A stretch of 64,000 bases of DNA. It comes from Phyllobacterium myrsinacearum. GTDB taxonomy: Bacteria > Pseudomonadota > Alphaproteobacteria > Rhizobiales > Rhizobiaceae. The stretch spans positions 248,001-312,000 of the forward strand of contig NZ_PVBT01000005.1 in assembly GCF_002980555.1 (NCBI RefSeq), given 5' to 3'. This document shows, one piece after another, positions 38,955-52,297 of this stretch. Made by a program: the position numbers and the translations under genes. Every line of letters starts with the position of its first letter. Position 1 is the first letter of the stretch. Under the pieces are notes generated by a model. It did not search any database, was not told the DNA's origin, and saw only the letters and a program-made list of their open reading frames with translations.

Positions 38955-39767
38955 TCAGCCCCTCATCCTTGGATCAAGTTTGTCACGCAGCGCATCGCCG
39001 AGAAGATTGATCCCGAGCAGGGTCAGTGAGATGCAGAGACCGGGAAATATGGCCAGCCACACCGCCTGGGATATGAAGGGCCGTCCGCTCGCCAGCATGT
39101 TGCCCCATGTCGGCGCGGGCGGCGGCACGCCGAGGCCGAGGAAGCTGAGCGCGCTTTCGGCAAGCAGCACCCAGCCGAACATCGACGTGGCGAGGACCGT
39201 AAGCGGTGCGACACAGTTGGGCAGGATGTGGCGGCCCATCGTATAGGCGTTCGAATTGCCCATGACCCGCGAGGCCTCGATGAATTCCCGCTCGCGCAAT
39301 GACAGGACGTTGCCGCGGACAATCCGCACGACAGTCGGGGTATAGGCGAGGCCAAGCGCCAGAATGATGCCATACTTGTTCGCCCCGACAATCGCGAGCA
39401 GGCCGAGCGCCAGGAGGATGCCGGGGAAGGCAAGCAGCGCGTCATTGAAGGTCATGACGATGCGATCGACCCAGCCGCGGAAATAGCCCGTCAATATCCC
39501 GATCAGGGTGCCGGCGGTTACGGCCAGCGCCACGGTGAGCAGGCTTATCCAGAAACTGGTCGCCGCTCCGGCCAGCAGCCGGCTGAGCACATCACGGCCG
39601 AACTCGTCCGTTCCCAGCCAATGGGCAGCACTTGGCCCGGCAAGCCTGAGTTTGAAGTTGAGGCCGAGCGGATCATAGGGCGTCCACACCGCCCCCATGA
39701 ACGCTCCGGCCAGCAATGTTCCAATCAGTGCGCTACCGAGAAGCGCGTTCGGAGCCAGATTTCTCAT
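38955..39767 (-). CDS. Peptide-type ABC transporter permease (DppC-like)
   Basis: A 270-residue permease. The N-terminal helix is followed by the DppC-type periplasmic loop (SAAHWLGTDEFGRDVLSRLL). The cytoplasmic coupling loop is EFIEASRVMGNSNAYTMGRH. It ends with LLGDALRDKLDPRMRG, the classical DppC/OppC C-terminus. It overlaps the partner permease gene by four bases (ATGA), which indicates translational coupling. Confidence 0.93.
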   Translation of the reverse strand: MRNLAPNALLGSALIGTLLAGAFMGAVWTPYDPLGLNFKLRLAGPSAAHWLGTDEFGRDVLSRLLAGAATSFWISLLTVALAVTAGTLIGILTGYFRGWVDRIVMTFNDALLAFPGILLALGLLAIVGANKYGIILALGLAYTPTVVRIVRGNVLSLREREFIEASRVMGNSNAYTMGRHILPNCVAPLTVLATSMFGWVLLAESALSFLGLGVPPPAPTWGNMLASGRPFISQAVWLAIFPGLCISLTLLGINLLGDALRDKLDPRMRG

Positions 39768-40708
39768 TCGGCAGTCACCCTCGGATCAAATAGGGGATAA
39801 AACAGATCGACGACGAGGTTCACCAGCACATACACCGTTGCAATGAGCAGGAGGCAGCCCTGGATGACGGGATAGTCCCTGGCGAAAATGGCATCGACAA
39901 GCAGACGCCCGAGACCGGGTATGGTGAACACCGTTTCAACCACAGCGATACCGCCGAGCAGATTGCCGAGGACGATGCCGATCAGGGTCCAGGTCGGGCC
40001 AAAGGCATTCTTGAAGGCGTGCCGCCAGAGAACTGCGGATTCCGACAGGCCCTTGGCCCGGGCGTGGGTAATGTAATCCAGCTGCATGACTTCCAGCGTC
40101 GAGGCGCGCGCCATGCGCAGGATCACACCGATCTCATGCAGGAAAAGCGTTACCACCGGCAGGATGATATAGAGCAGTCCCTGCGGAAGATTCTGTGACA
40201 TGGAGACATAGCCAAGCACCGGAAGCCAACCCATCTTCAGCCCGAAAAACAGCAGCAGGAGCAGCCCCATCCAGAACGCCGGAATGGAGAGCAGGATGGT
40301 TGCACCGCCGACCAGTGCCACGTCCGTCATGCTGTTTTGCCGCCAGGCCGCGATCATCCCTGCCGGTACGGCAACAATGCTGGCCAGGAAAACCGCAATC
40401 AGCACGATTTCCGCACTGATGCGCAGGCGTGCCAGTATCAGCGGCAGAACCTCCTGCTGATTGGTGATCGACCGGCCAAAATCCCCGTGCAGCAGATTAC
40501 CGAGCCAGATCGCAAACTGGGCGGGAATGGGCTGATCGAGCCCCAGCCTGGCGCGCAGATCCGCAAGGCTCGCCGGATCCGCCAGGTCACCCAGCATCAG
40601 CGATGCCGGATCACCGGGAATGAGGCGGATGAGAAAGAACACGGACACCGCCACGATGAACAATGTCGGGATTGCTGTGCCAATGCGGGTAATGGCGAAC
40701 TTCAGCAT
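39764..40708 (-). CDS. Peptide-type ABC transporter permease (DppB-like)
   Basis: A 314-residue permease with the DppB signature N-terminus (AVSVFFLIRLIPGDPASLML), the segment QFAIWLGNLLHGDFGRSI, coupling loop DYITHARAKGLSESAVLWRH and terminal VDLFYPLFDPRVTAE. It pairs with the DppC-like protein. The gene is 32 bases downstream of the binding-protein gene. Confidence 0.93.
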   Translation of the reverse strand: MLKFAITRIGTAIPTLFIVAVSVFFLIRLIPGDPASLMLGDLADPASLADLRARLGLDQPIPAQFAIWLGNLLHGDFGRSITNQQEVLPLILARLRISAEIVLIAVFLASIVAVPAGMIAAWRQNSMTDVALVGGATILLSIPAFWMGLLLLLFFGLKMGWLPVLGYVSMSQNLPQGLLYIILPVVTLFLHEIGVILRMARASTLEVMQLDYITHARAKGLSESAVLWRHAFKNAFGPTWTLIGIVLGNLLGGIAVVETVFTIPGLGRLLVDAIFARDYPVIQGCLLLIATVYVLVNLVVDLFYPLFDPRVTAE

Positions 40709-40740
40709 GCTGACCTCTCAAGCCTGCGGGAACGCGGCCA

Positions 40741-42282
40741 CTATTGTTCGAGACTGAGTTCCCAAAGACGCAGCTTGGACTGCCAGACAGGCGTGCCCTT
40801 CAGCCGTTTGCCGTTGACGGTTTCGCCGGTCCCGTTGCAGTAAATGATCAGGGGAACATCGTGCAGCAGCTTTTTGTGAAGCTCGTCGAAGATGGCCTGC
40901 CGCTGCGCCTGATCCGACACTTCCATGGCTTTGGCAATCAGCTCCAGCGCTTCGGGGTTGTCCCAGACCTTGCGCGGCTGTTTGTCCTTGGGCCCGGAGA
41001 ACTGCTCGAAGCTCAGAGCCGGATCGAGGCGCGCGGAATAGGAGAAGGACATCATCTGGTATTTGCCGGAATTGTAGCGGTCGAGCTGTGTTGACCAATC
41101 GAGGACCTCAATGCGGGCATTGATCCCCACGGCCTGAAGCATGGCCTGTGCCACCACCGCCGCATCGAAACTTGGTGCGGTGGGCCGCTTGTTGGCGATG
41201 ATGTTGATTTCCTCGCCCTTGTAGCCGGCCTTGGCGAGCAGGTCCGCCACCTTTGCCGGATCAGGGGCGAAGGCTTCTTTCTGGATGTCGCTGTAGTAGC
41301 GCGAGCCGGGGAAGATGGCGGAATTGTTGGGACGGCCGGTACCGTTGGTCGCCTGTGCGACAAGGGTCGGAAGATCGAGCGCCGCAGCAATGGCTTGCCG
41401 CATCTCCACCTTGGAAAGCAGCGGATCCCTGGTCTGCATCAGGAATGTATGCTTGGAGGCTTCCGCTCCTGCTGTCACGGTGAAATTCGCATTGGCTGAA
41501 AACTCCGGAATGTCGGTGCTTAGAACCGATGCGACGTCAAGGGCGCCGGACAAAAGTCCGGCTTTCACCGTGGCCGGATCTGGCACGACGAGGAATTTGA
41601 TTTCCTTGATCAGCGGGCGCTTGGAGCCGACATAGCCATCGGCCTTGTCTCCCGCTGGCGACACGTAGTTTTCAAAGGCGTCGAGGGTGATGTATTCCCC
41701 GCGCTTCCAGTTGCCAAACTTGTATGGGCCGGTGCCGATGGGCCTGTCCCAGCTTCCGTCAGCCTTGACAGACGCTTTCTGCAGCACGGCGGTCATTCCG
41801 CAATCCGTGCGCGCCAGCGTGTCGAGAAAAATCGCGCTCGGGTGATTGATCTTCATGACCACGGTTTGCGGGTCGGGCGTCGTGACGGCATCCACCTTGA
41901 GACCGTTGCGGCCGTCAAATTCCGGCAGGCAGCGCCACTCGGTCTTGGGGTCCATGTAGCGGGTCCAGCTCCACAGCACATCGGCGGCGGTCAACGGTTC
42001 GCCATTGTGAAAGGTGACGCCGGACCTGAGCTTGAATGTATAGGTCAGCCCATCCGGCGAAAGCTCGAAGCTTTGCGCAAGCAGCGGACCGACGGAGCCG
42101 TCTTCCTTGTAGCCGACAAGCCCCTCCACCGTGTGCAGAACCACCGCATCCGTATAATCGTCACGGTTGACACCGGGATTGGAACTGCGAATGTCAGCCG
42201 GAATTGCCGCCGTGATCGACTGGGCGGCGGCGGGGACCGCAAGCAGCCCCAATGCCAATGACATCAAAATAGCATTCTTCAT
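40741..42282 (-). CDS. Peptide-type ABC transporter solute-binding protein (family 5)
   Basis: A 513-residue family 5 binding protein (DppA/OppA/NikA type). With the start at 42282 the signal peptide is KNAILMSLALGLLAVPAAAQ. Family motifs are LLAQSFELSPDGLTYTFKLR, VTFHNGEPLTAADVLWSW and RPIGTGPYKFGNWKRGEYI. An ATG seven codons upstream is also possible. Its neighbours, a C45 hydrolase before and an alpha/beta hydrolase after, suggest the ligand is a peptide-like or N-acylated compound rather than nickel. Confidence 0.92.
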   Translation of the reverse strand: MKNAILMSLALGLLAVPAAAQSITAAIPADIRSSNPGVNRDDYTDAVVLHTVEGLVGYKEDGSVGPLLAQSFELSPDGLTYTFKLRSGVTFHNGEPLTAADVLWSWTRYMDPKTEWRCLPEFDGRNGLKVDAVTTPDPQTVVMKINHPSAIFLDTLARTDCGMTAVLQKASVKADGSWDRPIGTGPYKFGNWKRGEYITLDAFENYVSPAGDKADGYVGSKRPLIKEIKFLVVPDPATVKAGLLSGALDVASVLSTDIPEFSANANFTVTAGAEASKHTFLMQTRDPLLSKVEMRQAIAAALDLPTLVAQATNGTGRPNNSAIFPGSRYYSDIQKEAFAPDPAKVADLLAKAGYKGEEINIIANKRPTAPSFDAAVVAQAMLQAVGINARIEVLDWSTQLDRYNSGKYQMMSFSYSARLDPALSFEQFSGPKDKQPRKVWDNPEALELIAKAMEVSDQAQRQAIFDELHKKLLHDVPLIIYCNGTGETVNGKRLKGTPVWQSKLRLWELSLEQ

Positions 42283-42349
42283 GTTCTGAACCCCATTATT
42301 CATCCGGGCTTAGGTGCCCGTTGGTTGAAGAAGGAAAGATTTCCGTCCT

Positions 42350-43495
42350 TTAAGCGGCTGCGACTTGAACCGGCTCCGACCGAAGGCTGTAGCGGGTGAA
42401 GTTGCGGTTGATGGCCGGCAGGCATGCAACCTCCATGGTGCCGCTGGCGGGGTGCATGATGACCATGGCAACCGTGGCCGAAAGATTGCCTTCGGTGTTC
42501 AATCTCGGCGGCCTGCAAACGGCATAGGGCGTCAGAAAGTCATCGAAGAAGGCGCGCTTAATATCGGCGATGCCGAGTTTTTCCCCGGCTTCCTCCAGTA
42601 TCTTGCGCACGCGCCAGTCCCGGTATGGGCTTTCCGGCACATGCGGCAGCCCCGTATCCCGCAGTTTCGACAGTGCCACGGGACTCACCCAGTGATTGGC
42701 GTGAACAACCAGACCATTGGCCGGCAATATCTGGAACACCTCGTCAGGTGCGCATTCAAGATCGATGGCAAAGCCCGCGCCGGTCGAGAGGATCATGTTG
42801 TTGGAACAAGCCTTCGGCGTTCCCGCCACCGCCCGCATCGCAAGGGCAAAATGCTCCTGCTCCAATGCCTTGCGACGGATCAGCGCCAGGGGAACACCCT
42901 GCTGCCGGTAGTCGCGATCGGATTCAAGATAGTTTGCAGTGATGCAGACACCGGCGCTGTTCATGCCGTTCCGCGCAAGACCGCCTGCTTCGACGAATGT
43001 CAGGAAATCAGGGCCGTCCTCCTGTAGAACCCGCAGGACAATGGCCGTCTCGGCGCACTCCGTCTTCCAGTCCCAGTTCTGGCCATGAATGACGGTGCCA
43101 TCCAGGCTTCTCTCGGGAAGAATGACCGCCCCGGTGCACCCGTCATCGATCTCATCCTCTTCGTCCAGTGGCGCGTTCTTTTCCAGACGCGCCTTGGCAA
43201 TGACTTCAGTGCGGGCATTGATCATGACGATATCGTCGAAAGCAACGCCGGCGCCCTCGGCGATGCCGCGCATCTCCTCGATGTAGTGCGCACCGAAATT
43301 CGCAATTTCACCGGCAAACTCCTCGATGAGGCGGGTCTTTTCCGCTGCGCTGTAGCCCAGCTTGGCAAGCTGGTCGCCATACAGCGCAACACTTTTTTTC
43401 ACACGCTCGGGTACCGCAGCGCCGTATTGGCGCCCGCGCTCAAATGGCGTCCCTGAGACGGTTACGAAGGGAAAGGATGTCGGATAGGAATTCAT
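42350..43495 (-). CDS. C45 family Ntn-hydrolase (acyl-CoA:6-APA acyltransferase-like)
   Basis: A 381-residue peptidase C45 homologue. The predicted autoproteolytic site and N-terminal nucleophile is C120 in DEIDDGCTGAVILP, as in isopenicillin N acyltransferase (GCT). The N-terminal part shows GTPFERGRQYGAAVPERVKK, typical of the family. Further motifs are HGQNWDWKTEC and EAGGLARNGMNSAGVCITAN. Family members hydrolyse or transfer acyl or beta-alanyl amides (penicillin, carcinine, beta-alanyl-dopamine). There is no signal peptide. It is the first gene of the operon, divergent from the GntR gene. Confidence 0.88.
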   Translation of the reverse strand: MNSYPTSFPFVTVSGTPFERGRQYGAAVPERVKKSVALYGDQLAKLGYSAAEKTRLIEEFAGEIANFGAHYIEEMRGIAEGAGVAFDDIVMINARTEVIAKARLEKNAPLDEEDEIDDGCTGAVILPERSLDGTVIHGQNWDWKTECAETAIVLRVLQEDGPDFLTFVEAGGLARNGMNSAGVCITANYLESDRDYRQQGVPLALIRRKALEQEHFALAMRAVAGTPKACSNNMILSTGAGFAIDLECAPDEVFQILPANGLVVHANHWVSPVALSKLRDTGLPHVPESPYRDWRVRKILEEAGEKLGIADIKRAFFDDFLTPYAVCRPPRLNTEGNLSATVAMVIMHPASGTMEVACLPAINRNFTRYSLRSEPVQVAAA

Positions 43496-43509
43496 CGTTG
43501 CGCCTTATA

Positions 43510-43545
43510 GTGTATTTTGTTTAATTTACGTACACTTTAATACAC
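43510..43545. promoter_or_regulatory. Inverted repeat in the C45/GntR divergent promoter
   Basis: GTGTATT (43510-43516) and AATACAC (43539-43545) are perfect inverted arms 22 bases apart. A GTAC core lies between them at 43530-43533. The region is strongly AT-rich against GC-rich surroundings. It is the probable operator of the adjacent GntR regulator; the wide spacing might fit its two DNA-binding domains. Confidence 0.5.
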
Positions 43546-43594
43546 AATGATTGCGTGTCAATTGGCTTTTATGCAAAAATAAGCCGCATAGGAT

Positions 43595-44485
43595 ATGGAG
43601 CCAGAATTGACCGTCAGTGACCTGCAAATAGAAATCGCCCGCCAGATCGTTTCCTTGGCCTCGTCGGAGCGGTGGCCTGTCGGAGAGCGCGTGTCGGATT
43701 TTGCCCTGGCCAGAAGGCTGGGTGTCTCGCGGTCACCCATCCGCTCGGCCCTTGCCTTGCTGGCAAGCCGCGGCGTTCTGGCCCACGCGCCTGGACGGGG
43801 CTACGTCCTCGCTCTCCTGCCGGATGGCAATGGCGATATCGATGGCATCGCCCCGCCTTCGGAACTGGAGGATATCCACAAACGGCTGATGGCCGACCGG
43901 GCGACAGGCGCAATACCGATGGAGGTGTCAGAGACGCAGCTGGCAGAGCGCTATGACGCCACGCGGGGTACCATTCGCAAAGTCCTGCTGCGGTTTGCCG
44001 CCGAGGGTCTGGTCCAGCGCCAGAGAGGCCATGGCTGGGCTTTTGCCGAAAGCCTCGATACCGACCAGGTTGAGGAGGAAAGCTATCAGTTCCGCATGAT
44101 CCTGGAATGCGGCGCTCTGCGCCATCCGGGTTTCAGGGCGGACAAGGATCATCTTGCATCCATCCGCGCGGCGCAGGCGGATATCATGCGCATTCCGCCC
44201 GCCTCGGTCCAGCGGGATCAGTGGTTCAGCGTCAATGCGTCGTTCCACGAAGCGCTGGCCGTCTGGTCCGGCAATCGCTTTCTTGTCCAGGCCGTTCGCC
44301 AGCAGAACAGCCTGCGGCGCATTACCGAATATGCCTATTTCGAGCGGCTTCCGCACGAACGCATCCGTCAGGTCTGCATCGAACACATCGCCATTCTCGA
44401 CGCCCTTTCCGAAAACGACCTGACCTTTGCCGAGGCGCTTTTGCGCCGTCACATCGAAGGCGCCAGCCGCTATGAGGTGGACTAA
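43595..44485 (+). CDS. GntR family regulator with two winged-helix domains and FCD domain
   Basis: A 296-residue regulator. The first winged helix (residues about 10-72) has RRLGVSRSPIRSALALLASR and GRGYVLALLP. A second one (about 88-150) has LAERYDATRGTIRKVLLRFA and RQRGHGWAFAE. Residues 155-290 are an FCD effector domain (YQFRMILECGALRHPGF, FHEALAVWSGNRFL, HIAILDALSENDL). Most GntR/FadR proteins have only one DNA-binding domain. It should repress the divergent C45/ABC operon. Confidence 0.88.
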   Translation: MEPELTVSDLQIEIARQIVSLASSERWPVGERVSDFALARRLGVSRSPIRSALALLASRGVLAHAPGRGYVLALLPDGNGDIDGIAPPSELEDIHKRLMADRATGAIPMEVSETQLAERYDATRGTIRKVLLRFAAEGLVQRQRGHGWAFAESLDTDQVEEESYQFRMILECGALRHPGFRADKDHLASIRAAQADIMRIPPASVQRDQWFSVNASFHEALAVWSGNRFLVQAVRQQNSLRRITEYAYFERLPHERIRQVCIEHIAILDALSENDLTFAEALLRRHIEGASRYEVD

Positions 44486-44645: not shown

Positions 44646-44897
44646 ATGAATGAAGCCATTCGGGAACTTTTGGCTAAGGTAGGCGGCTTGCCGGTCGCCG
44701 TCGAACAGATCAGCGATGAAGAAGACCTATACAATGCCGGGTTGTCTTCATTCGCGTCTGTCCAGCTGATGCTGGGCATCGAGGACAGATTCGACATTGA
44801 ATTCTCGGACCAGTTCCTCAACCGCAAATCCTTTGCCAGCATCAAGGCTATCGAGCGGACAGTGGAAGCGATCCTCAAGAACAATGAGGATGCCTGA
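44646..44897 (+). CDS. Aminoacyl carrier protein (ACP-like)
   Basis: An 83-residue acidic four-helix carrier protein. The phosphopantetheine attachment site is in YNAGLSSFASVQLM; S34/S35 stand where ACPs have DSL, with S35 in register. The following helix is IEDRFDIEFSD, and the last helix is ASIKAIERTVEAIL. Carriers of this GLSS type are the substrates of amino acid:[carrier protein] ligases, one of which is encoded two genes downstream. The ATG at 44646 has GGGGGTG six bases upstream; a GTG nine bases earlier is inside that site. It overlaps the next gene by one base (TGATG). Confidence 0.9.
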   Translation: MNEAIRELLAKVGGLPVAVEQISDEEDLYNAGLSSFASVQLMLGIEDRFDIEFSDQFLNRKSFASIKAIERTVEAILKNNEDA

Positions 44898-46069
44898 TGA
44901 ACGCCGGCGCCGGTAACAGCCTGCAGCAGCGCGCAACACGCGTTGCCGCCATCGCCGCCCAGTTCGCCGACAATGTCGATACCCAGGCACGCTTTCCGCG
45001 CGAAGCTATCAGCGCGATGAAGGCCGAACATCTGCTTGGTATCCAGATTCCCGCCGATCTTGGCGGCGAGGCGGCACAGGTCGAGCAGATTGCAGAAATA
45101 TGTTCCATCATCGGACAGTCCTGTGCTGCCAGCGCGATGATTTTCGCGATGCATCACATCAAGCTGTCGAGTCTTGTCGAACATGGCCAATCTGCGCAAT
45201 GGCACCGGGCCTTTATGCGCCGGGTTGCGGCCGAGCAGTTGCTGCTGGCTTCTGCAACCACCGAAGGCGGCATTGGCGGGGATTTGCGCAACAGCATATG
45301 CGCCATCGAAATTGACGGCGATGTCTGCCGCCTTGAAAAGAATGCGACAGTCATTTCCTACGGCACCGAAGCCGATGCGATCCTGATCACCTCCCGCTCG
45401 GGCGCGGAGGCCGCATCCTCCGACCAGGTCATGACCGTTTTTGTCAAGGATCAGTATACGCTCGAGAAGACAAACGGCTGGGATACCCTCGGCATGCGCG
45501 GCACCTGCTCGGAAGGGTTCGTTTTCCGGGGAGCTGGCAGCACGGAGCAGATCCTGCCCCACCCTTTCGCGGAAATCGCGGCGCAATCCATGCTTGCCAT
45601 GGCGCATCTCCTCTGGAGCGCGCTCTGGTACGGGATTGCAGTCGATGCCGTCACCCGGGCCCAGTCCTTCGTCAGGGCAGCAGCCAAGCGTGCGCCCGGC
45701 GTTCAGCAGCCGGGAGCATTGCGCGTCGCCGAAGCGTCGAACATGCTGCAGATGCTGAAGTCCGAAATCGTCGCCTGCCTCAACACCTACCGGCATGCCA
45801 AGGACGACAGCGACAAGCTTGCCTCCATGGGCTTTGCCATCACGATGAACAACCTGAAGGTTGGCGCGTCGCAGTCCATTCTGCAGATCATCAATCATGC
45901 CATGCTTGTCTGTGGCATCATGGGTTACAAGAACGGAACACCCTACAGCCTCGGCCGGCATTTGCGCGACGCCAATTCGGCACAGCTCATGGTTTCCAAT
46001 GAGCGCATTCTTGGCAACACCGCCACGATGCTGCTCATCCATAAACAGAACACCAGTCTTTTGGGGTAA
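44897..46069 (+). CDS. Acyl-CoA dehydrogenase family flavoprotein
   Basis: A 390-residue acyl-CoA dehydrogenase fold. The N-terminal helical domain has ISAMKAEHLLGIQIPADLGG and EICSIIGQSCAASAMIFAMH. The middle beta domain has LLASATTEGGIGGDLRNS and GWDTLGMRGTCSEGFVF. The C-terminal helical domain ends with RHLRDANSAQLMVSNERIL. It is translationally coupled to the carrier protein gene. My inference is that it acts on an acyl group held on the carrier, as known for aminoacyl- or prolyl-carrier dehydrogenases, rather than in fatty acid oxidation, since no other beta-oxidation gene is present. Confidence 0.88.
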   Translation: MNAGAGNSLQQRATRVAAIAAQFADNVDTQARFPREAISAMKAEHLLGIQIPADLGGEAAQVEQIAEICSIIGQSCAASAMIFAMHHIKLSSLVEHGQSAQWHRAFMRRVAAEQLLLASATTEGGIGGDLRNSICAIEIDGDVCRLEKNATVISYGTEADAILITSRSGAEAASSDQVMTVFVKDQYTLEKTNGWDTLGMRGTCSEGFVFRGAGSTEQILPHPFAEIAAQSMLAMAHLLWSALWYGIAVDAVTRAQSFVRAAAKRAPGVQQPGALRVAEASNMLQMLKSEIVACLNTYRHAKDDSDKLASMGFAITMNNLKVGASQSILQIINHAMLVCGIMGYKNGTPYSLGRHLRDANSAQLMVSNERILGNTATMLLIHKQNTSLLG

Positions 46070-46083
46070 CGGGGTAACACGGC

Positions 46084-46992
46084 ATGGACGCTCAAATATC
46101 TTTTCTCGACCGCTTGTTTTCGGCCGGTCTCCTGCTCGATACCGGCGTTGACGGTCTTTATGGACGCAGCGGCCGTTTCGAGGACGTCATCGCCGCATTC
46201 GAGCGGCTGATTGACCGCACCGGCGGCGGCGATGGTGCAGAAGCCATCCGCTTCCCGCCCGGGATGAACCGCGCCATCTTCGAAAAAAGCGGCTACATGA
46301 AGAGTTTTCCGCAATTGGCCGGAACCATCCACAGCTTCTGCGGATGCGAGCTTGACCATGTCAATCTCATCCAGTGCATGGATGCGGGCAAGGACTGGAC
46401 GAAGGAACAGGAAGCGACTGATATCGTGCTGACGCCGGCCGCCTGCTATCCGCTCTATCCCGTCATTGCCCAGCGCGGCGACCTGCCGGCAGACGGCGGA
46501 CTGTTCGACCTGCAATCCTATTGCTTCCGGCACGAACCGTCGAAAGACCCGGCACGCCAGCAGATGTTCCGCATGCGTGAATATGTCCGCATGGGCAAGG
46601 CCGACGACGTGATGGAATTCCGCCAGCTCTGGATCGAGCGGGGCACGGACATCATGCAGCGGGTGGGTCTTCCCGTTCACATCGACGTTGCCAACGATCC
46701 GTTCTTTGGCCGCGCCGGGCGCATGCTGGTCAACAATCAGCGCGATCAGAACCTGAAGTTCGAACTGCTTATCCCGATCACGTCAACCGAAAACCCGACC
46801 GCCTGCATGAGCTTCAACTATCATCAGGATCATTTCGGCACGAAATGGGGCATTCAATTCGCCGATGGCACGACGGTCCATACTGCCTGTGTCGGATTTG
46901 GCCTGGAGCGGATTGCACTCGCCCTGTTCCACCACCATGGCCTCGACATCGAAGCGTGGCCGGAGCAGGTTCGCCAGGAATTGTGGGGCTGA
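46084..46992 (+). CDS. Amino acid:[carrier protein] ligase (class II aaRS-like, atypical SerRS relative)
   Basis: A 302-residue protein homologous to the catalytic core of the archaeal-type seryl-tRNA synthetase but without a tRNA-binding domain. Family members activate glycine or alanine with ATP and transfer it to the phosphopantetheine of a small carrier protein. Predicted zinc ligands are C121 ([10 protein letters not shown]), E166 ([11 protein letters not shown]) and C269 ([11 protein letters not shown]). Their spacing equals that of the zinc ligands I recall for the Bradyrhizobium Bll0957 enzyme (131/176/279). Motif 2 is FRHEPS...MFRMRE and motif 3 is [12 protein letters not shown]. The partner carrier is encoded two genes upstream. 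The pathway fed by this ligase has, to my knowledge, no established function. Confidence 0.93.
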
Positions 46993-47000
46993 CCGGCGGC

Positions 47001-48008
47001 ATGCAAGCTGTTTTTCCCCATATCGATCCGCAGACATACCGGCCGCATGCCCTGCATGCGCAGGACCGGATTTGGCCGGAGACCAACTGCTACGTTGATC
47101 TGTGGATCGAGGTTCTTGCCGCACAGAACCTGCCGCCGGAAGCAATGCTGGGCTTCACCCTGAACCAGGATTTTGAAGGCGACCAGTTTACCTTTTTCAA
47201 GGTGCCGCTGGAGGATCTGGAGACGCTCTATGGCATTCGCGTCGGCGAGCTTGCCATCTTTGACACGGTGGAAAGCCACGTGGCCGCACAGATGGCACGG
47301 GGCCGCCTCACCCTCGTGGAAATGGACAGCTATTTCATGCCGGACACCCATGGGGTGGGCTACCGCAGCGAGCACGGCAAGACGACGGTTGCCATCAACC
47401 GCATGGATACGCAAAACCGCAGCCTCGATTATTTCCACAATGGCGGCTTCTTCCACCTGGACGGCGACGATTTTGACGGCCTGTTCCAGCGTCATCTGAC
47501 CGCTGAGGATATGCCGTTCCTGCCCTACACGGAATTTGCAAAATTCCCGGACAGGCCAGCCAGTGCGGCCTCGATACGCGAGATATCCGCGCGTCTGCTG
47601 CCCGGCCATTTCGCCCGCCGGCCCGCAGCAAATCCCATTCGCGCGTTCATGGATGTGTTTCCGCTGCAGGCCGAGGCCGTGGCGGAGCGGCCCTTTGCAT
47701 TCTTCCACAAATACGCCTTCAACACGATGCGCCAGCTGGGCGCAAACTTCGAACTCGCCGCCAGCCATCTCGCATGGCTGCGCCCGGACGGGTTCTTTGC
47801 GGCGGCCGCAAACGACGCGATCCGCATTGCCGAGGTTGCCAAGGCGGCGCAGTTCCAGCTTGCCCGTGCCGTCACGCGCAAGAAATTTGCTCCGCTGGCC
47901 GATGCGCTCATGCCCGCCGCCGATGCGTGGGATCGCATGATGGATGTTCTGGCTTCGGAACTCGGCCATCCCAAAGTGCATGCCGCCGAAAGCCGCGTGG
48001 ACGCTTGA
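47001..48008 (+). CDS. DUF1839 family protein
   Basis: A 335-residue protein of the DUF1839 family. Clear stretches are RIWPETNCYVDLWIEVLAAQ at the start, QDFEGDQFTFFKVPLEDLE, VEMDSYFMPDT and KTTVAINRMD. The C-terminal half is helical. It is cytosolic with no membrane segment. The family is found with amino acid:[carrier protein] ligases and may accept the aminoacyl group, but this is inferred from context only. The ATG at 47001 is eight bases after the ligase stop. A GTG at 46983 overlapping the ligase gene is an alternative start. Confidence 0.85.
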   Translation: MQAVFPHIDPQTYRPHALHAQDRIWPETNCYVDLWIEVLAAQNLPPEAMLGFTLNQDFEGDQFTFFKVPLEDLETLYGIRVGELAIFDTVESHVAAQMARGRLTLVEMDSYFMPDTHGVGYRSEHGKTTVAINRMDTQNRSLDYFHNGGFFHLDGDDFDGLFQRHLTAEDMPFLPYTEFAKFPDRPASAASIREISARLLPGHFARRPAANPIRAFMDVFPLQAEAVAERPFAFFHKYAFNTMRQLGANFELAASHLAWLRPDGFFAAAANDAIRIAEVAKAAQFQLARAVTRKKFAPLADALMPAADAWDRMMDVLASELGHPKVHAAESRVDA

Positions 48009-48013
48009 CGCGG

Positions 48014-50494
48014 ATGGAGAGCGTGCCGCGGCCGATCAGCACCGGAGACGGCCAGCACCTCGACGATGCATGGCATCTCATCCTGACGGCGTCGGGCGAG
48101 GCATCCGGGCCGGATCAGCTGCGCCGCGAAAGCGCTTTGCCGGATGTCCCGGTACCGGGCACGGTGGCCGAAGCCCTGGAACGGGCCGGCCGCTTTGAAC
48201 GCGGCGCTCCCTTTCCGCTCAATCAACAGGATGCCTGGTATATCCGAGCGTTCGGCAACGAACCGGCGGGAATGGCCATTCTTCGTTTCGAAGGGCTGGC
48301 GACAATTGCCGAAGTCTATTGGAACGGCAGCCGAGTTTTGCAGTCCGCCAATATGTTTCTGGCATCGGACGTTACAGTCGAATTGACCGGCAAGGACGAG
48401 CTTGCCATATGCTTTCGCGCATTGGCGCCTCTTCTTAACCGGAAAGGCCCCCGCGCACGCTGGCGTACCCAACTGATGAACGAACAGGGCCTGCGCCTGC
48501 TGCGGACCACACCTCTGGGCTACATGCCCGGCTGGTGTCCTGAAATTCATCCGGCAGGTCCATGGCGTCCTGTAAAGCTGTTGCGGCTGGACGAAGAGCC
48601 GATAGCCAACATCGACATCCACAGCGAATTGACCGGCGGAGGAGACGGCATCCTCAGCGTAAGTTTCGCTTATTCGGGATCGTTTGAACGCCCCGTTGTG
48701 GAATGTTCCGGCTGCAGCATCGAAGCCGTTCTGAACGAAGACGGTCGCTGGCATGCGCGTCTTGATATACCGGGCGCGACTCCGTGGTGGCCCCACACAC
48801 ATGGTTCACCGGTGCTGCATGATGTCGTGCTGCACGCCGGGCAGGAAACATATCGGCTGGGGCGCACCGGCTTCAGGAGCCTGGAAATCGACCGGGGTGG
48901 GGACAGCCAGGGCTTTGCCTTGATCGTCAACGGCAAGCGCATTTTCTGCCGGGGCGCGGTCTGGAGCTCCGCCGACATTGTCCGCCTGCCGGGCAAACGC
49001 AGGGATTACGCACCCTGGCTGCGCCTTGCCGCGGATGCCGGAATGAACATGATCCGCGTCAGCGGCATAACGGCCTATGAAAGCAATGATTTCTTCGATC
49101 TGTGCGACGAACTCGGCATCCTGGTCTGGCAGGATTTCATGTTCGCCAATTTCGATTACCCGGTGAAGGATGCCGAATTCGCAGCGCAGGTCGGCGCGGA
49201 AGCCCGGCAGTTCCTCAAGCGAACGCACGCGGCCCCATCTCTGGCGGTCCTGTGCGGCGGCAGCGAAATCTACCAGCAGGGCTCCATGCTGGGCTTGCCG
49301 GAAACCGTTTGGAAAGGGCCTCTGACCGAGGAAATCCTGCCATCCCTGTCACGCAGCCTGCGTCCCGACGTGCCGTACATTGCCAATTCACCATGCGACG
49401 GTGCCCTGCCCTTCATTGCCAATGCCGGCGTCAGCCACTATTACGGTGTCAGCGCCTATTGCCGGCCGCTGGACGATGCGCGCCGCGCCAATGTCCGCTT
49501 CGCTACCGAATGCCTGGCGTTTTCCAACGTTCCGGAAGCCCGCACATTGACAGCGCACCTGAATGTGCCTGCGGTCCACCATCCCCGCTGGAAAGCAAGG
49601 GTGCCCCGCGACAACAATGTATCCTGGGACTTCGAGGATGTGCGGGAAGCCTATCTTGCCATGCTGTACGGCTTCGATCCCACGACACTGCGCCGCGAAG
49701 ACATGCCATCCTACCTGCACCTGTCCCGGGCGGTAACCGCCGAAGTGATGGAAGCCACTTTTGCCGAATGGCGGCGGCCGGGAAGCAGTTGCTGGGGCGG
49801 ACTGGTCTGGATGCTGCAGGATCTTCTGCCGGGGGCGGGCTGGGGCATCATCGACAGCACGGGTGAACCGAAGGCCGCGTGGTACGGTTTGAAACGCGCC
49901 TGGCGCACCGTCAATCTCACCCTCACGGATGAGGGCATTAACGGGTTGGCGCTTCACATCGTCAATGAACGGCCGCAAGGGCTGGAAGCCAGCGTGGAGG
50001 TCACGTCCCTGCGCGCCGGGAAACAGCCGGTTGTATCGGGCCGCCGTGATCTGACGCTCAAACCGGGCCAATCCATGACACTGGCGGCAACGGATCTGTT
50101 CGGCGCTTTCTTTGATACAACCTATGCCTATCGTTTTGGCCCGCTTTCCCATGATGTGACCGTAGCGCGCTTGAAGGACCCGCAATCCGGTACGGTTCTC
50201 GCCGAGGCTTTCCATTTTCCGCAAGGCCGCACGAAAGCCTTCCATGACGCGGCAATTGAAACCGCCCTTACACTGGAAGGGAATGTCTGGTTCCTTGAGC
50301 TGACGACGCCCGTGCTCGCCCAGTCAGTCCATGTGGATATCGAGGGCTATCGCCCCGATGACAACTGGTTTCATCTGGCGCCTGGCGAGCCCAAGCGGCT
50401 CGGACTGAGCCCCCGGGACGGCACCACGCTTTCGGCCCGCCCAACCGGAGAGATCCGTATTGCTGGAAGTTCCCGCATCGTCTGGTTTGAGTGA
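48014..50494 (+). CDS. Glycoside hydrolase family 2 protein (beta-mannosidase-like), cytosolic
   Basis: An 826-residue GH2-type enzyme. The N-terminal jelly-roll has PVPGTVAEALERAGRFERG and LNQQDAWYIRAFGNEPAG, as in beta-mannosidases. An immunoglobulin-like domain follows, then the TIM barrel (LRLAADAGMNMIRVSGITAY, ELGILVWQDFMFANFDYP). The likely acid/base is E418 in LAVLCGGSEIYQQG, and the likely nucleophile is E499 in RFATECLAFSNVP. PGSSCWGGLVWMLQDLLPG closes the barrel. There is no signal peptide. It is five bases downstream of the DUF1839 gene, so it belongs to the aminoacyl-carrier operon, which is an unusual partner for a glycosidase. Confidence 0.88.
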   Translation: MESVPRPISTGDGQHLDDAWHLILTASGEASGPDQLRRESALPDVPVPGTVAEALERAGRFERGAPFPLNQQDAWYIRAFGNEPAGMAILRFEGLATIAEVYWNGSRVLQSANMFLASDVTVELTGKDELAICFRALAPLLNRKGPRARWRTQLMNEQGLRLLRTTPLGYMPGWCPEIHPAGPWRPVKLLRLDEEPIANIDIHSELTGGGDGILSVSFAYSGSFERPVVECSGCSIEAVLNEDGRWHARLDIPGATPWWPHTHGSPVLHDVVLHAGQETYRLGRTGFRSLEIDRGGDSQGFALIVNGKRIFCRGAVWSSADIVRLPGKRRDYAPWLRLAADAGMNMIRVSGITAYESNDFFDLCDELGILVWQDFMFANFDYPVKDAEFAAQVGAEARQFLKRTHAAPSLAVLCGGSEIYQQGSMLGLPETVWKGPLTEEILPSLSRSLRPDVPYIANSPCDGALPFIANAGVSHYYGVSAYCRPLDDARRANVRFATECLAFSNVPEARTLTAHLNVPAVHHPRWKARVPRDNNVSWDFEDVREAYLAMLYGFDPTTLRREDMPSYLHLSRAVTAEVMEATFAEWRRPGSSCWGGLVWMLQDLLPGAGWGIIDSTGEPKAAWYGLKRAWRTVNLTLTDEGINGLALHIVNERPQGLEASVEVTSLRAGKQPVVSGRRDLTLKPGQSMTLAATDLFGAFFDTTYAYRFGPLSHDVTVARLKDPQSGTVLAEAFHFPQGRTKAFHDAAIETALTLEGNVWFLELTTPVLAQSVHVDIEGYRPDDNWFHLAPGEPKRLGLSPRDGTTLSARPTGEIRIAGSSRIVWFE

Positions 50495-50497
50495 TCG

Positions 50498-52297
50498 TCA
50501 GCCCTGAAAACGCAGTGCCATCCGTTCGAGCGCGTCAATATAGATAGTGCGGGCATGTTGCGGTGTGAGATTGTGATCCGCATCGGGGATCTTCTTGACC
50601 GACACATTGGGATACCCGGCAATCCTGTCTTCCCGCGCATCGAAATAATAGCCGAAATATTCAAGCCCCGGATCCCGGTAGCTGTAGAGCAGTTCAACGG
50701 GAATCTGCCTGTCCTTCAGCACGCCGAATGCCTTGTAAACCGCCCGGCCTTCCGTCGTCCGGCCGCGAAGCAGATGCCGTGCCCGTTTGGCAATGCGCCG
50801 GCCCATTCCTCCGGCAACGTTTCGGGCAATGCCGGCAAAATCCAGTTCGCCGCGGACAAGACGTTTGAACGTCGAGGCGCGCAACAGGCGGCTGCCATAT
50901 TCTTCCAGGGTTCGGCTGCCTTCGCGCACGGCCTCGTCGACCGAACGTCCCGGTTCCCAGTAAAAGGTAATGGGATTGACGAGGACCGCACCGGACAGCC
51001 GCGGGTCGGCAACGGCGCTCTGAAACCCGAGATAAGCGCCGCTGCAGCGGCCCGCAGCGATGATCGCCGGCGTGCCGAGGCCATTGAGAAAAGACAGCGC
51101 TTCGGCAACATCGGCATTCTGCGCATCATGATAGAGTACCTGATCGGGAACGCCGGGGACTGGCGGACTATCGGATGCATTGGCCGTATCAAACCGGAGC
51201 GAGGCGACACCGCGCCGTGCCAGCGCGCGCGCTATGGTGACAATCGTTCGTCCCCATCCCGCATGCCGGTCATAGGCAGAGGTCAGGAACAAGACCGTCG
51301 CGCCGCGCCTTGCCCCCTGCGGCTCGCACAAAACGCCATAAAGCCGGTCACCACGACCGAAACGCAGCGGGGTTTCGCAGAAGTCATCGCCCTGCAGCGT
51401 CCCAGGTTTCACATCCCGTATGGCAGGTGCATGGACTTCAGGAGACGCGATGCGTCCCGCAACGCCGGCAGCCCAGTCGGCAATACGGCCGGCAACCGCA
51501 AGCGGCAGCTGCGAAATGACAGGATTGGAAACCAGCTTGTCATAGCTGGTATAGTCCTCAAGTATCGTGTCGATGCCGAGCTGGCTGAGATGCGCTGCGA
51601 ACTCCCGGTCGGACGGCCGGTCCACCCGCGCCAGAACCAGGCATTCCGGCGCAATTTTGCTGCCAAGCGTCATCAGGTTTGCCCGGCGCAATCCTTCCGC
51701 CACTTCCGCGGGCAGTTTCAGCGACGCAATAGACACGCCAGTTTTGTCGCGCTGGGCTTCCGGCAAGCCAAGGTCGGCGTCGACCATGCCGGACCAGATC
51801 GACAGTTCGCGCGTATAATGGCGGCCTGAAACGACCGGAGCCATGAACGCGATAGCGTCGAGCCCGCCGATGTGGCCCGCAGCGTCGGCGGCAATCACGC
51901 AACCCAGGCCCTGGCTCAGAACAATGACGCGCTGGCAGCCTGAGAGGTCCTTCAGCAATGCCGCCCCGGCCACAAGCGCATCACTCCAGACCGCCAGCCC
52001 TTTGGAAAAGTCACCACCATCCAGCGCGTCGCCGGTTCCCGGCCAATCGAAGCGGAAGGAGGGAATGCCCTTCTCTGCCAGTTGCTCTGCAATGATGCGC
52101 CAGAATTTGCGGGTACACAGTTCTTCAAGCCCCCATGGGCTGGCGAAAAGCACAGCTGTATTACCCGAATGATCCGTATCAGCCCGTTGAAAAAGTCCAA
52201 TCGTCTGATTGAAAACAACAGGCTGTGCGGCCGCCCGCCCCCCTATCCTTACAGCGTCCGCAAATTCCCCAGACTGCCTATGGATTTCCTTGTTCAT
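50498..52297 (-). CDS. Tandem alpha/beta hydrolase with degenerate first elbow and Cys in second
   Basis: A 599-residue protein of two alpha/beta hydrolase domains. The first (residues about 25-290) has FASPWGLEELCTRKFWRIIA, FRFDWPGTGDALDG and the elbow IVLSQGLGCV (S128), which lacks the usual leading Gly. The second (about 330-599) has VLFLTSAYDRHAGWGRTI, LRFDTANASDSPP and the elbow IIAAGRCSGAYLGF, where C418 replaces serine. The final His is in PDADHNLTPQHART. Such double hydrolases occur with surface polysaccharide or carrier-protein clusters. A Cys nucleophile would suit thioester transfer. It converges on the GH2 gene with three bases between stops. The ATG at 52297 follows GGGCGAGG. Confidence 0.85.
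   Translation of the reverse strand: MNKEIHRQSGEFADAVRIGGRAAAQPVVFNQTIGLFQRADTDHSGNTAVLFASPWGLEELCTRKFWRIIAEQLAEKGIPSFRFDWPGTGDALDGGDFSKGLAVWSDALVAGAALLKDLSGCQRVIVLSQGLGCVIAADAAGHIGGLDAIAFMAPVVSGRHYTRELSIWSGMVDADLGLPEAQRDKTGVSIASLKLPAEVAEGLRRANLMTLGSKIAPECLVLARVDRPSDREFAAHLSQLGIDTILEDYTSYDKLVSNPVISQLPLAVAGRIADWAAGVAGRIASPEVHAPAIRDVKPGTLQGDDFCETPLRFGRGDRLYGVLCEPQGARRGATVLFLTSAYDRHAGWGRTIVTIARALARRGVASLRFDTANASDSPPVPGVPDQVLYHDAQNADVAEALSFLNGLGTPAIIAAGRCSGAYLGFQSAVADPRLSGAVLVNPITFYWEPGRSVDEAVREGSRTLEEYGSRLLRASTFKRLVRGELDFAGIARNVAGGMGRRIAKRARHLLRGRTTEGRAVYKAFGVLKDRQIPVELLYSYRDPGLEYFGYYFDAREDRIAGYPNVSVKKIPDADHNLTPQHARTIYIDALERMALRFQG

Follow-up and report, generated by a model that had tools for sequence, protein, structure and literature searches.

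What becomes of an amino acid after a ligase derived from an aminoacyl-tRNA synthetase (aaRS) has loaded it onto a small carrier protein? The question is raised by a cluster of six genes at positions 44646 to 52297 of the DNA analysed here, a 64,000-nucleotide stretch of the Phyllobacterium myrsinacearum genome (contig NZ_PVBT01000005.1), referred to below as the window. Biochemical knowledge of amino acid:[carrier protein] ligases dates from 2010. According to the excerpt of a 2022 review that we consulted, the biological role of the loaded carrier was still called unknown at that time (PMC9437257). A sequence-only reading of the window had assigned the cluster to a single pathway, in which a carrier-bound amino acid is oxidised, transferred and processed, and a glycoside is made or trimmed. 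On balance, our results appear to support this interpretation in part and to narrow it to the decoration of an exported polysaccharide: judging from the sequences, the cluster probably attaches a small amino acid, as such or after oxidation, to a sugar of an exported surface polysaccharide.

Five of the genes, all on the plus strand, encode in this order the carrier, a flavoprotein, the ligase, a DUF1839 protein and a glycoside hydrolase of family 2 (GH2), with gaps of -1, 14, 8 and 5 bases; the sixth, for a double alpha/beta hydrolase, is convergent, and 3 bases separate its end from that of the GH2 gene. Both this packing and the families of the five genes had been read from the sequence, and they were confirmed by the coordinates of the open reading frames and by matches to Pfam and NCBIfam models, respectively. 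In an order-level survey, 52 of 249 genomes, that of the window among them, had a ligase match, and about 10 kb on either side of the other 51 ligase loci was examined, some of these stretches stopping at contig ends. The 51 loci comprise 35 of clade A, 12 of clade B and four with distant ligases. Of 398 genomes drawn across the phylum, 28 had a ligase that passed the cut-off. DUF1839 was found in 16 of the 398, always with the ligase gene as its neighbour, within about 130 bases. Ten clade A loci from this draw were combined with the 35 from the order survey into a set of 45 loci, and a second set was made of the best 80 of 474 relatives in named genomes, mostly from Rhizobiaceae. These 125 loci were scanned with models of the six cluster proteins.

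Carrier, flavoprotein, ligase, DUF1839 and GH2 were all present in 45/45 and 80/80 loci of this ligase clade, and in each of the 35 clade A loci of the order survey all five genes were on the strand of the ligase. Presence was counted by a stop-to-stop frame search (the gene caller alone found DUF1839 in 73 of the 80 loci), and because the ligase model weakly matches shadow frames, these counts rest also on the conserved residues described below, which were counted over 126 rows (the window and both sets) or, for the hydrolase, over 90. The hydrolase was present in 89 of the 125 loci (29 of 45 and 60 of 80). The five genes are one locked unit, with the hydrolase as a frequent partner; regarding the latter as an obligatory member is not in agreement with its not being found within about 10 kb in the other 36 loci.

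The 12 clade B loci, whose ligases are 45-52% identical to that of the window, provide a comparison. Flavoprotein and ligase were found in all of them and a divergent carrier was detected in 10, while none gave a match for DUF1839, GH2 or the double hydrolase. In a ligase tree of 67 rows, all 46 rows with DUF1839 and GH2 fell to one side of a branch with support of 100/98. The tree used nine of 14 clade C loci, L081, L082, L135, L141 and L142 having been left out as fragments or weak matches, and it gave long-branch warnings, among others for L134, for L140 and for L124 with L125. The neighbourhood comparison thus bears out the proposal of a single pathway, since GH2 and DUF1839 accompany this ligase clade throughout and are missing from clade B. 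That the genes are chance neighbours working separately, an idea to which the loci lacking a nearby hydrolase could lend some weight, is hardly credible when the five are inseparable at every one of the 125 loci, in several families as well as on two annotated plasmids, one of Rhizobium leguminosarum 23B (without the hydrolase) and one of Azospirillum argentinense (with it).

The nearest named relative of the window cluster was found in Phyllobacterium calauticae (L144), the ligases being 98% identical. Rhizobium lentis SEMIA 4036 has two five-gene copies on different contigs (L178 and L199), the second in a different setting and without the hydrolase. A second DUF1839 paralogue was seen in two genomes of one family (f109): in G546 it lies about 4 kb from the first, on the opposite strand (L127), and in the other genome on another contig (L107; G476 contig 159). 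No DUF1839 relative was confirmed on viral contigs.

Carrier and ligase are clear members of the NF005480 and NF005479 families. The carrier (44646-44897, plus strand, 83 aa) scored 115.3 bits against a cut-off of 72 with NF005480, gave a PP-binding match (PF00550), and matched the aminoacyl carrier protein 4h2w_C and Atu2571 of Agrobacterium (2jq4) in phmmer searches; its predicted phosphopantetheine site, Ser35, is kept in 126/126 rows. The ligase (46084-46992, plus strand, 302 aa), which has a seryl-tRNA-synthetase-like core, scored 514.5 bits with NF005479 (cut-off 357) and matches the family of the solved Bll0957 (PDB 4h2w/3mey). Cys121, Glu151 and Cys269, which we take to correspond to the Cys, Glu and Cys zinc ligands of Bll0957, are likewise invariant over 126 rows. 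The window ligase is therefore predicted to load a small amino acid, with glycine expected, on the carrier. In this first step, established for homologues, the ligase would adenylate the amino acid and load it on the phosphopantetheine of the carrier.

The second step would belong to the flavoprotein (44897-46069, plus strand, 390 aa). It has the acyl-CoA-dehydrogenase fold: the N-terminal domain (PF02771, Acyl-CoA_dh_N) was matched with 36.9 bits against a cut-off of 22.9, while the middle and C-terminal domains remained below their cut-offs (18.4 vs 33.3 and 18.7 vs 22.4). Structure alignments for this and the following enzymes used relatives picked by hand from the 80-locus set (27 for the flavoprotein, 14 for DUF1839, 15 for GH2 and 20 for the hydrolase). 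Position 366, presumably equivalent to the catalytic Glu of medium/short-chain dehydrogenases (MCAD-376), is Ile or Val in 125 rows with one gap, and position 236, which by our own alignments we take for IVD-254, is Ser, Ala, Thr or Cys in 126 rows; His237 is invariant. With no acid at either of the usual catalytic Glu positions in 126 rows, ordinary acyl-CoA-dehydrogenase chemistry, by which the aminoacyl thioester had been thought to be oxidised, is disfavoured, and the missing glutamate makes oxygenation likelier than desaturation. An ordinary dehydrogenase turning carrier-bound alanyl into dehydroalanyl is what the fold itself would suggest, and the top three PDB matches of the family profile are dehydrogenases; against the absence of the catalytic acid, and with an expected substrate, glycine, that has no beta carbon, we consider such an activity unlikely. 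The best single-sequence PDB match was the nitrososynthase DnmZ (4.4e-14), acyl-CoA dehydrogenases having similar scores. An assignment of the flavoprotein as a nitrososynthase, based on that match, was withdrawn after the profile search ranked dehydrogenases above or level with DnmZ. Since carrier, flavoprotein and ligase stay together in clade B without the rest of the cluster, the flavoprotein may act on the carrier-bound amino acid, and modification of the latter by oxygenation or C-N oxidation would be likelier than alpha,beta-desaturation.

For the transfer of the acyl group the best candidate is the DUF1839 protein (47001-48008, plus strand, 335 aa; PF08893, 443.7 bits vs a cut-off of 22.5), a predicted aminoacyl transferase. 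In the part of PMC10318531 that we consulted, DUF1839 is counted among the papain-like proteins, a superfamily whose triad is Cys-(Thr/Ser)-His, and gene context is taken to suggest glycan processing. Over 126 rows, Cys30 is kept in 124, Thr128 and Thr129 in 125 each, and His125 and His146 in all; by our own assignment, Cys30, Thr129 and His146 form the candidate triad. A role in transfer, as proposed in the sequence-only reading, is thus plausible. Cys30 would take over the acyl group and, still in the cytoplasm, hand it to a sugar, at either an amino or a hydroxyl group. A papain-like fold has also been proposed for BtrH, whose acceptor is an aminoglycoside. The order of its triad differs from that of DUF1839 according to the same excerpt (PMC10318531), and the window protein has no match to the BtrH_N family, PF08893 being its sole Pfam match at E <= 0.01.

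The acceptor might be a substrate of the GH2 enzyme (48014-50494, plus strand, 826 aa), which is of the beta-mannosidase type. Glyco_hydro_2_N2 (PF22666) was matched with 52.5 bits (cut-off 27), and the family profile aligned with beta-mannosidase 5n6u over profile positions 37-798 of 821 (9.3e-73). Glu418 and Glu499, kept in 126/126 and 124/126 rows, align with the catalytic pair of 2vjx, and we take them to be the beta-mannosidase catalytic positions. The Asn expected before the acid/base Glu in GH2 beta-mannosidases is not found in the window enzyme; Ser417 occupies this place there and in 124 of 126 rows overall, Asn occurring in two. In this enzyme clan the Asn contacts the C2 hydroxyl, so the substitution would suit a sugar carrying a modification at C2. 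No hydrophobic stretch was seen at the N-terminus of the window protein in a simple hydropathy scan, and the enzyme is predicted to be cytoplasmic and to act there on the acceptor. Having kept both catalytic residues, it could prepare, trim or proofread the acceptor glycoside.

The double hydrolase (50498-52297, minus strand, 599 aa) may indicate where the product goes. Both halves are alpha/beta-hydrolase-like, and their nearest NCBIfam models are the exosortase-A-associated hydrolases, TIGR03101 for the N-terminal half (55.0 bits) and TIGR03100 for the C-terminal half (76.2 bits), the scores lying below the curated cut-offs of 202.75 and 168.45. In the window the two halves are joined in one protein, and in some relatives also to Wzx. 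In the C-terminal half, Cys418 is kept as the nucleophile in 89 of 90 rows, and Asp542, Asp574 and His575 in 88; the nucleophile position of the N-terminal half is Gly in 65 rows, Ser in 14 and Arg in 11. The N-terminal half thus usually appears to lack a nucleophile, and the C-terminal half holds the candidate active site, of a Cys type. Members of exosortase-A hydrolase 1 had Cys at the nucleophile position in eight of 10 loci over the cut-off, the other two being not alignable.

In 30 of the 125 loci (28/80 and 2/45), the hydrolase is the C-terminal part of a fusion with a Wzx-type flippase. The fused frames are 1101-1133 codons long, with the flippase N-terminal; the one fused member scanned (L210) matched Pfam Polysacc_synt_3, and the Wzx model used in this search was derived from two relatives, one with a fused and one with a separate flippase. 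In 13/80 and 2/45 further loci a Wzx-type flippase is encoded by a frame of its own, which shares the strand of the hydrolase frame and adjoins or overlaps it. As the last step, the hydrolase, coupled to Wzx in relatives, might edit or complete the acylation where the product is exported. Candidate active sites are conserved in the ligase, the carrier, the papain-like enzyme, the glycosidase and the Cys-type hydrolase, and these proteins are inherited together.

The neighbourhoods were also surveyed for families of polysaccharide genes. Models of glycosyltransferases, a sugar transferase, flippases, a polymerase and WecG, applied at >=100 bits within about 10 kb, found such families near 25 of the 35 clade A loci that had supplied the models, and near held-out loci in 6 of 10 cases (phylum draw) and 45 of 80 (named genomes). 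Twenty control regions, each about half a contig away and each from a different one of the 45 clade A genomes, gave 0/20 at the same threshold and 1/20 at >=50 bits; for the 10 held-out loci of the 45-locus set against these controls, Fisher p = 3.5e-4. Individual loci contain a GumK-like glucuronosyltransferase (L176), GT4 glycosyltransferases (L210) or a Wzz protein (L165). Among the products offered by the sequence-only reading, a decorated glycan is therefore the one favoured by gene context, a modified amino acid or a small signal being less so.

Several observations weigh against a polysaccharide as the acceptor. None of the surveyed polysaccharide families occurs anywhere in the 64 kb of the window, where peptide/amino-acid ABC transporter genes flank the cluster on both sides; the closest named relative, P. 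calauticae, likewise lacks these families and has the cluster between ABC transporter genes. The same is true of the families around the two annotated plasmid copies, and no such family was found within about 10 kb of 14/45 and 35/80 loci. The positive counts are not independent, as the models come from clade A neighbours and the 80-locus set is mostly from Rhizobiaceae. Moreover, clade B scored 1/12 with the original models and 6/12 after flippase and Wzz families had been added, a result that is partly circular, the added models coming in part from the same clade B loci; the polysaccharide link is therefore not special to DUF1839 and GH2.

One could thus imagine that the product is a small, soluble glycoside, or a modified amino acid: a secreted metabolite or signal made in a butirosin-like way, with GH2 making or unmasking the glycoside. 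The surroundings of the window and plasmid cassettes are compatible with this, and BtrH sets a precedent, a papain-like enzyme by which a carrier-bound acyl group is transferred to an aminoglycoside (PMC10318531, in the excerpt consulted). Recurrence of polysaccharide genes and of the Wzx-hydrolase fusion across the clade, and a constant gene set that includes no exporter or other biosynthetic gene, argue against it, and we regard a small product as improbable, although it is the chief rival reading. Decoration of an exported polysaccharide remains the reading that we prefer.

Another neighbourhood could point in a quite different direction. In 57/80 and 4/45 loci the cluster is immediately preceded by efp, epmA and epmB (L210:5473-8295 and equivalents). 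This adjacency could speak for a ligase that serves protein modification, for example of EF-P, as does EpmA, another aaRS relative. The four loci of the 45-locus set are all from the window's own family, for which reason we take the adjacency as synteny, probably a gene order shared by Rhizobiaceae; furthermore, efp, epmA and epmB are not among the genes annotated around the cluster of the window. A function in modification of EF-P is, in our opinion, very improbable.

Directly upstream of the window cluster, positions 39764-44485 encode a C45 autoproteolytic acyltransferase, a peptide-type ABC transporter and a GntR/FCD regulator. These genes are kept in P. calauticae, and none was seen among the genes listed for Phyllobacterium sp. 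628 (L145). As candidate parts of the cluster they were rejected: blastp of the 51 loci with the window proteins gave no match for C45 and one weak match for FCD (L072), and this near-absence, together with the gene list of L145, is why they were left out.

The sequence-only reading knew of no downstream pathway, and here one addition is needed, as a published prediction exists. A note added in proof in 2010 reported, in the part of PMC2922099 that we consulted, a ligase neighbourhood with the carrier, a monooxygenase/dehydrogenase, the uncharacterised Atu2574, a glycosidase and liposaccharide genes. The proposal made there was that an amino acid, probably modified by monooxygenation, is ligated by an amide bond to an amino sugar of the cell surface. 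Gene order in the Agrobacterium loci is the same as in the window (L218), so Atu2574, to judge by its numbering, should be the DUF1839 gene. Our counts and controls support the 2010 proposal, and to what that excerpt of PMC2922099 contains we add the fusion of hydrolase and flippase, the missing catalytic base of the dehydrogenase, Ser in place of Asn in GH2, a nucleophilic Cys that exosortase-associated hydrolases have as well, and partners that vary from one ligase group to another.

Among known systems, the ligase Bll0957 of Bradyrhizobium and the carrier Atu2571 of Agrobacterium belong to the same families as the window pair (3mey, 4h2w, 2jq4). Clade B, which we take as the Bll0957 type, differs from the window in that its 12 loci are without DUF1839, GH2 and the double hydrolase. 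D-alanylation of teichoic acids by Dlt is alike in outline, a ligase and a small carrier serving to acylate a surface polymer. It differs in using an AMP-binding ligase and the MBOAT protein DltB, whereas the window has an aaRS-derived ligase, a proposed papain-like DUF1839 transferase, and in addition the flavoprotein and GH2; by Pfam, neither a DltA-type AMP-binding ligase nor a DltB MBOAT is among the six proteins of the cluster. AlmEFG of Vibrio cholerae, as described in the excerpt consulted of PMC12930378, resembles the proposed pathway in handing glycine from a carrier protein to a glycolipid of the surface; its transferase is a different one, its target is lipid A, and no Alm-type gene was found in the window cluster. 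The system works like Dlt or Alm and is a member of neither. Concerning a link to glucomannan attachment in R. leguminosarum, the part of PMC11406972 that we consulted contains only gmsA of the terms looked for.

Partners of the other ligase groups suggest that the window cluster may be one variant of a more general arrangement. A family of proteins of about 300 aa (f20) accompanies the clade B ligase in eight of 12 loci (L060, L063, L065, L070, L071, L073, L075 and L076); of three members scanned, one had a weak GNAT match, which at 20.4 bits falls slightly short of the cut-off, and the others had none. In L060 the called f20 frame overlaps the end of the ligase. Also within clade B, the ligases of L075-L078 lie near an O-acetylhomoserine-sulfhydrylase-like enzyme and a MetA-like acyltransferase, directly downstream in L077 and L078. 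Beside distant ligases, a DltB-like MBOAT protein was found in five loci (L079-L082 and L134). In L079-L082 the ligase, the MBOAT protein and a two-part protein weakly like DltD/DUF1574 form an operon-like row, with a carrier in three of the four, the ligases of L081 and L082 being incomplete; in L134 (7424-12131), carrier and MBOAT are on the strand opposite to the ligase. The DltB model TIGR04091, which was applied to the L081 gene alone, matched it with 182.6 bits. The DltB-like MBOAT family aminoacylates surface polymers. Since the partners of clade B and distant ligases differ from DUF1839, the putative transferase seems to depend on the ligase group, the donor part being kept.

It is conceivable, if still doubtful, that these loci represent a general aminoacyl-carrier module, in which the donor is oxygenated by the flavoprotein (to N-hydroxyglycyl, for example) and then handed to interchangeable transferases: DUF1839, together with GH2 and the flippase-coupled Cys-hydrolase, for exported polysaccharides, perhaps a GNAT-like protein in clade B, and a DltB-type MBOAT with the distant ligases. 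If this were true, bacterial surface glycans would carry an oxidised amino-acid amide; we know of no description of an amide of that kind on them. For the window cluster and its clade, the five-gene unit and the hydrolase-flippase fusion point to the assembly of a polysaccharide in the cytoplasm and its export, and to one kind of product. Should the proposed decoration of an exported polysaccharide prove true, it would join Dlt and Alm as a further carrier-protein route by which bacteria aminoacylate their surface polymers, distinct from these in its ligase and transferase.

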